Below are positions 11,326 to 31,874 of a stretch of DNA of 64,000 nt, piece by piece. Each line of letters opens with the position of its first letter. The stretch's first letter is position 1. The position numbers and the translations under genes were made by a program. The notes below the pieces were generated by a model. That model had not been told where the DNA came from and searched no databases. It saw nothing but the letters and a program-made list of their open reading frames with translations. The DNA lies in assembly GCA_001563305.1 (NCBI GenBank), contig CP013703.1, positions 1 to 64,000 on the forward strand, written 5' to 3'. This DNA comes from a methanogenic archaeon mixed culture ISO4-G1. Its GTDB lineage: Archaea > Thermoplasmatota > Thermoplasmata > Methanomassiliicoccales > Methanomethylophilaceae.

Positions 11326-11383
11326 AAACTTCTCATGTGAGCCTTTATAAACTATCAGACGAATCCAATCGATAGTCTGCTGA

Positions 11384-11629
11384 CGTTTAGGACCCCCGAA
11401 GGGGTCCATGGGTTCCTTTCAGAACCCTGTGAGTAACGCGAGCAGAACCCGCATTACCCAATAGACCAGGGTCCATCCGTGCAAAGAGCGACCCTGGTCC
11501 TCTTCCTCAGGTAAGTTCTCACCCCCTTTCAGATTCTCAGGACCGAGTCCAATGCAACAGACGATAGTCCATTGTACACTGGACTTCGCCCTGGCAGATT
11601 ACTCATGTGCCAGCGGAGTATATGTAACG
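11384..11629 (-). ncRNA. Structured RNA, copy A of a two-copy family
   Basis: No protein frame explains this region, but its reverse complement aligns end to end with a plus-strand region at 30735-30978. Helices preserved in both copies include a perfect 10-bp stem (11464-11473 with 11490-11499), an 8-bp stem whose loop is GGTTCTGCT (11433-11457), a GGGTTC/GAACCC hairpin (11410-11427), an 8-bp pairing of 11547-11554 with 11577-11584, and a closing 7-bp hairpin with a TTCG loop (11390-11407). Several pairs differ between the copies in a compensatory way. The conserved motif GGGGGTGA (11519-11526 reversed) resembles a ribosome-binding sequence. It has its own TATA promoter. It does not match the cores of RNase P RNA, SRP RNA, 5S rRNA or tRNA. 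Ends are estimates. Confidence 0.75.
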
Positions 11630-11646
11630 ATGACCCGCTCTCTAGG

Positions 11647-11656
11647 CTTTAAAAAA
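11647..11656 (-). promoter_or_regulatory. TATA box of RNA copy A
   Basis: Reading on the minus strand, the element TTTTTTAAAG is followed by CCTAGAGAGCGGGT. Apart from one base, this whole 24-base stretch is identical to the promoter of RNA copy B. The predicted start of transcription is about 23 bases downstream, at the conserved CGTTA near 11629. It lies between the 3' end of polB and the RNA, on the same strand. Confidence 0.65.
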
Positions 11657-30707: not shown

Positions 30708-30717
30708 TTTTTTAAAG
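30708..30717 (+). promoter_or_regulatory. TATA box of RNA copy B
   Basis: The element TTTTTTAAAG is followed by CCTAGATAGCGGGT. This stretch differs by a single base from the promoter of RNA copy A. The conserved CGTTA, 23 bases downstream of the box, is the predicted start of transcription in both. Confidence 0.65.
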
Positions 30718-30734
30718 CCTAGATAGCGGGTTTC

Positions 30735-30978
30735 CGTTAGAAATAGTGAGCAAGGGCATGGTCATTACGCCGGGGATGAAGTCCAATGTACAGTGGGCTT
30801 CTGTCCTAGTACGTTGGGCTCGACCCGAGTTCTTCCGAAGGAGGTGAAAATACGTCCGAAAAGGAAGACCAGGGCCGTAGGCTCCAACTTAGGGTCCTGG
30901 TCTGTTTAGTGATCCGGGTTATGCTCGGATTGCTAATCGGGTTCTTATGAACTCTGAGACCCTCGGGGGCTCTAAACG
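30735..30978 (+). ncRNA. Structured RNA, copy B of a two-copy family
   Basis: This gene-free region aligns along its whole length with the minus-strand copy A. Shared helices are a 10-bp stem (30867-30876 with 30893-30902), a 9-bp stem with loop GGTTATGCT (30908-30934), the hairpin GGGTTC-TTAT-GAACTC (30939-30954), the pairing GTCCAATG/CGTTGGGC (30781-30788 with 30812-30819), a small hairpin CTCG-ACC-CGAG just after it, and a terminal GAG..CTC hairpin (30956-30972) followed by TAAACG in both copies. In the 10-bp stem a T-A pair of copy A is C-G here and a G-C pair is G-T, so pairing rather than sequence is conserved. GGAGGTGA at 30840-30847 is a perfect complement of the 16S anti-Shine-Dalgarno core. 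Ends are estimates; function unknown. Confidence 0.75.
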
Positions 30979-31115
30979 TTCAAAGAACCGATTATTCGAT
31001 TAAGTTCATGATTTATATATTGTGCCCCCAGCCGTCGGTCGCTAGTGCATCTTTATCTACACCGTAGGGAATCGGGTACCATTATGCTCCGCATGATGCG
31101 GAAGAGGAAGATCGA

Positions 31116-31874
31116 ATGGATATACCGAAGGATCATCCAAGATACAAATCATTGATGACAAGGGAACGTCTGGCACATATGGTGGAAGAGGGGCTTGTCA
31201 CCCCTACCGGGCTGATATCCCACGGAAGGGGAGAGGCCTACGACTATCTCATGGGGGAGAAGAGCATCCCTCCCGCCCTCGAGGCAGAGAAGGTCGCCGC
31301 GGCGTATCTCCTGAGGGCGAAGAACCCTGTGGTATGCGTAAACGGGAACGCGGCGGCGCTGGACCCCGAGAACCTCATAGCTCTGGCGAAGGCCGTCCCG
31401 GCCAAGATGGAGGTCAACCTGTTCCACAGGACCCCCGAGAGGATGGAGGGACTGATCTCCTATCTGGAGTCGAAGGGCGCCGAGAACGTCCTGGGAAGGG
31501 TACCGGACTGCAGGATCCAGGGTCTGAACCACGATCGCGCCCTGTGCACCAAGGAGGGGATCTTCGACAGCGATGTGATAGTGGTACCGATAGAGGACGG
31601 CGACCGCGCAGAGGCGCTGGTCTCGATGGGAAAGGTCGTCATTTCCATCGACCTCAACCCCCTGTCCCGCACCTCATGCAAGGCAACGGTGCCGATCTCC
31701 GACGAGATGACCCGTGCGCTGGAAAATATCATCAAATTCATCCAGGAACTCAGGGGCGACGAACAGGCAATGCTTAAAATTATCAGCCAATACAGTAGCC
31801 AAAAGAACCGTCGCGAGACCGTGAAGTACATCTGCGATTCGCTGATGTCAGGTTTCGGAACGGAGGATGATTAA
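31116..31874 (+). CDS. 4-phosphopantoate--beta-alanine ligase (archaeal CoA pathway)
   Basis: This enzyme makes 4'-phosphopantothenate from phosphopantoate and beta-alanine with ATP, replacing bacterial PanC in archaeal coenzyme A synthesis. The 252-residue protein matches the COG1701 family over its length, with TPTGLISHGRGEAYDYLMGE near the N-terminus and VNLFHRTPERM, NHDRALCTKEGIF and SIDLNPLSRTS further on. A GAGGAAGA ribosome site precedes the ATG. The 5' leader contains the hairpin CCGCATGATGCGG (31089-31101) just before that site. The stop directly abuts the ahcY start. Confidence 0.9.
   Translation: MDIPKDHPRYKSLMTRERLAHMVEEGLVTPTGLISHGRGEAYDYLMGEKSIPPALEAEKVAAAYLLRAKNPVVCVNGNAAALDPENLIALAKAVPAKMEVNLFHRTPERMEGLISYLESKGAENVLGRVPDCRIQGLNHDRALCTKEGIFDSDVIVVPIEDGDRAEALVSMGKVVISIDLNPLSRTSCKATVPISDEMTRALENIIKFIQELRGDEQAMLKIISQYSSQKNRRETVKYICDSLMSGFGTEDD

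Follow-up and report, generated by a model that had tools for sequence, protein, structure and literature searches.

Known type I systems and the ISO4-G1 copies

The closest described systems are bacterial type I toxin-antitoxin modules. In Bacillus, txpA/RatA and bsrG/SR4 each combine a short peptide ORF, a structured mRNA with a hidden Shine-Dalgarno (SD) sequence and an antisense RNA that meets the toxin mRNA head-on at its 3' end. The toxins TisB, Ldr, Ibs and Hok are amphipathic or transmembrane peptides of about 20 to 50 amino acids, with ldr and ibs occurring as tandem multi-copy loci. The hok mRNA has a metastable leader and folds end to end. Type I systems have been reported only from Proteobacteria, Firmicutes, Tenericutes and one cyanobacterium in the literature searched (PMC12390103), and no archaeal case was found in that literature. 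The Microcystis system msoT1/msoA1 is a bacterial type I module which was experimentally tested in E. coli (PMC12390103). CreTA is CRISPR-regulated and occurs in archaea and bacteria, with CreT sequestering a tRNA (PMC8501985).

ISO4-G1 (CP013703) is a Methanomassiliicoccales methanogen from the sheep rumen with a genome of 1,593,503 bases. It decodes UAG as pyrrolysine, and no prophage, plasmid or CRISPR was reported for it (PMC4824259). The window analyzed here is the first 64,000 nucleotides of this genome. It contains two paralogous elements, copy A (11384-11629, minus strand) and copy B (30735-30978, plus strand). Each copy is probably an archaeal module resembling type I toxin-antitoxin pairs, as judged from its anatomy. 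This anatomy consists of an amphipathic peptide, an SD predicted to be paired, weak initiators, a switchable leader, a putative convergent antisense promoter, and copies that are tandem and patchily distributed. The frame, the fold with its covariation, the position of the SD and initiator, the leader alternatives and the mostly antisense TATA were obtained by computation. Chances are about even that the elements form the first archaeal type I family, with a toxin ORF inside covarying helices whose translation is held down by near-cognate CUG, AUC, AUA and ACG initiators, by a bistable leader and by a convergent antisense RNA. If so, type I architecture would exist in Archaea too, and some copies would need pyrrolysine for full translation. 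The family would also serve as a natural system in which to study how archaea initiate at codons other than AUG and how their RNAs switch folds during transcription. In rumen methanogens, a group targeted for methane mitigation, it would supply elements for growth control.

The family resembles txpA/RatA and bsrG/SR4 in its short ORF, its structured mRNA with an SD predicted to be hidden, and its 3'-converging antisense RNA, the last being a prediction in this case. It differs from them in its archaeal promoters, in a frame placed inside covarying helices and in its near-cognate initiators, and a sequence relation to them was not found. The short amphipathic peptide is shared with tisB, ldr, ibs and hok, the tandem arrangement with ldr and ibs, and the metastable leader and end-to-end fold with hok. 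Unlike these, the family has an archaeal host, a different antisense geometry and no Pfam match to those toxin families. As with msoT1/msoA1, it lies outside the classical phyla and was found by anatomy rather than homology (PMC12390103), but the Microcystis system is bacterial and has been tested by experiment. CreTA likewise has a short toxin RNA with a mini-ORF in archaea. CreT, however, works as an RNA under repression by Cas, whereas here the peptide itself is conserved and the host reportedly lacks CRISPR (PMC4824259).

Fold, covariation and distribution

The sequence-only reading had described A and B as paralogous, structured RNAs that align along about 245 nt, and this was borne out. 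The alignment covered about 246 nt, and blastn with the promoter included gave 67% identity (E 4e-11). The predicted fold had a z score of -7.9 for copy A and -6.2 for copy B, values matched by none of 200 dinucleotide shuffles. The compensatory changes quoted for the stems are present in the sequence. Between A and B, P5 changes from GACCAGGGTC/GACCCTGGTC to GACCAGGGCC/GGTCCTGGTC, and two other stems change from GTAATGCG/CGCGTTAC to AGTGATCCG/CGGATTGCT and from GTCCAGTG/CATTGGAC to GTCCAATG/CGTTGGGC. Rfam searches of the 64-kb window and of each copy gave no match that reached the gathering threshold, and lax thresholds added none that was credible. No tRNA or tmRNA matching A or B was predicted. 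The earlier statement that neither copy has the core of SRP RNA, RNase P RNA, 5S rRNA or tRNA stands.

Helix P5 occupies 11463-11500 in copy A (GGACCAGGGTC/GACCCTGGTCT) and 30867-30902 in copy B. Helix P6 lies at 11433-11457, with a triloop, in A and at 30909-30933 in B. Both helices were assigned from fold and covariation. They are followed by the predicted hairpins P7, which holds the stop codon, and P8, which is terminal (11390-11427 in A, 30939-30972 in B). The two ends of each RNA pair with each other in the predicted folds (CGTT/AACG).

A covariance model of 110 positions, R1, was built from six sequences including A and B, as the sequence-only reading had proposed for the two copies. 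It scored copy A at 97.9 bits and copy B at 87.4 bits, both being among the sequences used to build it. When 147 genomes of the order were searched with R1, 32 of them yielded about 100 matches in all, a count that, like the other family counts, treats related copies as independent. Positive genomes carried 1 to 11 copies, many in tandem. A third ISO4-G1 copy (L046) was found at 602.1 kb. By blastn against 100 related genomes short matches were found in two others only and almost all members were missed. One contig matched in this way carried five copies at spacings of 454, 5898, 452 and 454 nt. With these homologues P5 and P6 covaried, giving 131 double-change cells where shuffles gave 39, and a score of 0.400 against 0.216, in an alignment that was fitted to the model structure. 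Slid registers of P5 and P6 gave far lower covariation scores.

Strong R1 matches were confined to one family (f1), whose named members are Methanomethylophilaceae and Thermoplasmata MAGs. No match outside that family was found in a class scan of 400 genomes (E <= 0.001) or a phylum scan of 293 genomes (E <= 0.0001). Weak matches outside f1 (G062, G066, G082; E > 0.001) were dismissed as noise because these stricter scans were empty. Some bacterial contigs fitted the P5 palindrome pattern by itself and were regarded as hairpins arising by chance. No family member turned up when viral contigs were searched for the P5-hairpin pattern, or when phages and plasmids were searched by tblastn with one family peptide (from the ATG-start L065, not A or B). 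A mobile or viral origin was rejected on these two empty searches and on the reported lack of plasmid and prophage in the host (PMC4824259). The elements are a previously unrecognized multi-copy family of gut methane-making archaea. In the draft assemblies G010, G016, G025 and G137 several copies lie near contig ends, as expected if assembly stops at tandem repeats. The copy numbers counted in MAGs are therefore probably too low.

The peptide frame inside the helices

The sequence-only reading had found no protein frame in the alignment, and in this it was wrong. Both copies have the same open frame, which extends from just past the SD to a TGA at P7 and is conserved in relatives. In copy A the SD GGGGGTGA (11519-11526) is followed by the frame PEEEDQGRSLHGWTLVYWVMRVLLALLTGF (11419-11514), with TTA at the initiator position. 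In copy B the SD AGGAGGTGA (30839-30847) is followed by SEKEDQGRRLQLRVLVCLVIRVMLGLLIGFL (30852-30950), with ACG at that position. Counted from the codon after the initiator position, the two frames span 11511-11419 (minus strand) and 30855-30950 (plus strand). Both SD sequences are paired within a small hairpin in the predicted folds.

Nearly all relatives have a strong SD followed by one conserved frame of about 30 codons with the pattern x(4-8)KDQGxxxxxKLxLVLxAIRLLxELLR-stop. The frame runs through P5 and P6 and ends at P7. Several relatives look like a plain gene, with AGGAGGTGA, a short spacer, ATG and about 30 to 37 codons. Examples are MSKSSKDQGGLIAKVNLVLQAIRLLVELLKV (L065) and MDDGEKDQGRWLQLLTLVLESIALLVQIIRLFW (L046, ISO4-G1's own). 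A profile was made from seven ATG-start peptides, and in 91 of 95 R1 matches the frame that fitted it best lay on the sense strand. Independently of that profile, the lengths of P5 were examined in the 60 best non-redundant R1 matches. The P5 span was a multiple of three (33, 36, 39, 42 or 45) in 59 of them, whereas the length of P6 (25 nt) and of the spacer between P5 and P6 (6 nt) hardly varied. Nothing would oblige a non-coding RNA to alter its loops three nucleotides at a time, which argues that P5 is coding. With P5 changing in threes and P5 and P6 nonetheless covarying, selection acts on the RNA fold and the peptide at once.

When TAG was counted as pyrrolysine, 64 of 69 elements kept the frame open through the whole of P6. 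Stops were TGA or TAA at clustered distances past P6. Five members had an in-frame TAG inside the ORF (L054, two copies in L056, L061:4313 and L074), a codon that the order is able to decode as pyrrolysine. Their full-length peptide would need this residue, so the output of toxin could depend on how much pyrrolysine is available.

The initiator position was located from the SD. At +12/+13 from the first G of GGAGG the in-frame codon was ATG or a one-base neighbor in 65-78% of elements, compared to 5-30% at most other offsets. Taking the best codon per element (n = 69), there were 19 CTG, 11 ATG, 10 ATC, 5 ATA, 3 ACG and 3 TTG. The usual codon at the initiator position is thus near-cognate (CTG, ATC, ATA, ACG) rather than ATG, and this is read here as selection for weak initiation. 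The non-ATG copies could also be partly decaying pseudogenes. Translation of copy A is doubtful as TTA is no accepted start. None of the usual start codons was present upstream in the same frame in A or B. A GTG overlapping the SD was considered as a start and rejected, since it does not share the frame in A, in B or in the +12 class.

A non-coding structured RNA, for example one acting on ribosomes through its anti-16S sequence with the frame as a by-product of the stems, is very improbable. The very strong conserved structure and its covariation, the perfect complement to the 16S 3' end and the missing start codon of copy A would suit such an RNA. Against it stand P5 indels only in multiples of three, an initiator signal whose spacing from the SD is constant, ATG in many members, and the conserved stop position and peptide pattern. 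The RNAs of this family are, very probably, mRNA-like molecules that code for a peptide of about 30 amino acids and carry selected structure as well. The family is an example of a coding gene with exactly the appearance of a structured, non-coding RNA.

The peptides have about 31 residues and are short and amphipathic, encoded in their own predicted mRNA. The helix segment had a mean moment of 0.46, with shuffle p < 0.05 in 57%. Pfam/NCBIfam searches with the window and related peptides matched no known type I toxin family and gave a single match at E 0.2, and PADLOC and PHROGs gave no match for the family peptides. A CreT-like RNA toxin, whose mini-ORF starves a tRNA while the peptide is not the agent, has a precedent in archaeal CreTA, where CreT sequesters tRNA (PMC8501985). 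It is extremely unlikely here. Peptide residues are conserved rather than particular rare codons, and CRISPR was not reported in the host (PMC4824259).

Benign peptides that bind membranes can have amphipathic helices as well. A small, non-toxic, membrane-associated regulatory peptide made from a translationally regulated mRNA, with the antisense RNA merely tuning expression, would fit all the coding and structural evidence equally. The rapid turnover, the tandem amplification, the range of 0 to 11 copies per genome and the absence from many sister species fit a selfish or defense-like module better, making the non-toxic peptide an unlikely reading, if one to be taken seriously.

Leader, promoters and proposed control

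Both window copies are preceded by a TATA box, TTTTTAAAGCCTAGA(G/T)AGCGGG, which is correctly spaced from the 5' end. In copy A the sense promoter is TTTTTAAAG with the motif CCTAGAGAGCGGG (11634-11655, minus strand), a pattern exactly common to the three genome copies. The genome motif search placed the same motif at 30709-30730 (plus strand) in copy B. The earlier claim of promoter-driven copies thus held for both, though the genome has three copies rather than two. The proposed dedicated RNA gene family, as opposed to a leader, was correct in that the family is independently promoted with downstream neighbors on either strand. It was not correct as to a non-coding RNA, the transcript being an mRNA for a peptide of about 30 amino acids.

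Two hairpins, Ha and Hb, can form in the leader but exclude each other, as GTCC is common to their 5' arms. Pairing analysis placed the leader at 11546-11585 in copy A (AGTCCA/TGGACT for Ha, AGTCCAGTG../..CATTGGACT for Hb) and at 30778-30820 in copy B (GAAGTCCA/TGGGCTTC for Ha, AGTCCAATGTAC/GTACGTTGGGCT for Hb). A bistable leader score of at least 7 was reached by 52% of elements compared to 1.6% of mononucleotide shuffles.

An A+T peak was found just beyond P8 (0.76 compared to about 0.5). At 32-39 nt after P8 the box TTTATATA (7 or 8 of 8) was found 14 times in antisense and 4 times in sense orientation, with 0-3 in other bins. The TATA score past P8 was better on the antisense strand in 33 elements and on the sense strand in 9 (n = 60). 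A promoter matrix trained on tRNA genes was higher on the antisense strand in 40 of 59. This matrix was used in place of a de novo motif search, which found no motif in the 5' flanks, probably because leader length varies. Some elements lack the antisense TATA. There is an apparent convergent antisense promoter at the 3' end of the elements. In copy A the putative TATA is CCTTTATAAAC (11342-11352, plus strand), conserved in position and orientation in the family, with a start predicted from TATA spacing near 11374, about 10 nt past the sense 3' end. In copy B the putative TATA is TATATAAA (31012-31019, minus strand), assigned from the A+T profile and TATA count with the same geometry as A, and its position would put the start near 30989. 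Its orientation is ambiguous due to a plus-strand ORF beginning at 31116.

The 3' TATA could instead be the promoter of downstream genes, leaving the element a solo peptide gene with no antisense antitoxin. In favor of this, TATA-like boxes are partly palindromic and the ORF at 31116 beside copy B is co-directional. The distance from P8 is fixed, however, and the antisense preference holds whatever the downstream strand. Downstream neighbors were on the opposite strand in 30 cases and on the same strand in 26. Genes thus follow on either strand about equally, which assigns the TATA to the element itself. A downstream promoter was rejected as the reason for the TATA on this even split, and the solo gene is unlikely.

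Under the type I reading, control of each copy would run as follows, with both-strand transcripts, non-ATG translation, antisense repression, membrane action and toxicity all inferred from the anatomy. The sense promoter would give an mRNA of about 245 nt, folded along its whole length. During transcription the leader would form the local hairpin Ha first and the longer Hb later. As the SD would be held in a small hairpin before a weak initiator, the full-length mRNA would be little translated. An antisense RNA starting about 10 nt past the 3' end would pair with the mRNA and lead to its block or destruction. Should the antisense RNA fail, an amphipathic or hydrophobic peptide of about 30 residues would be made and would act on the membrane.

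The three ISO4-G1 copies have the upstream motif TTTTT(A/G)AAG(C/T)CTAGANNGCGGG in common. It occurs at six genome sites within two mismatches and at none in a reversed-pattern control, so the three copies may share their regulation with a small number of other genes. The three other sites are at G000:C1:296825, 966828 and 1589280 (loci L190-L192). The motif precedes a DUF3800-like gene (MSWVVAIDESGDLGEHS..) and a leucine-rich surface-protein-like gene, both named by eye, and at the third site it is near a gene beginning MSRLLVCSEPDLPS. The upstream flanks of the members L099, L057, L089 and L095 have their own repeated motifs, for example CTAACCACTAATCGTAGTATGCTCCCATTAAATC and ACCTTAGATAATCGGC, which suggests lineage-specific regulation of the elements.
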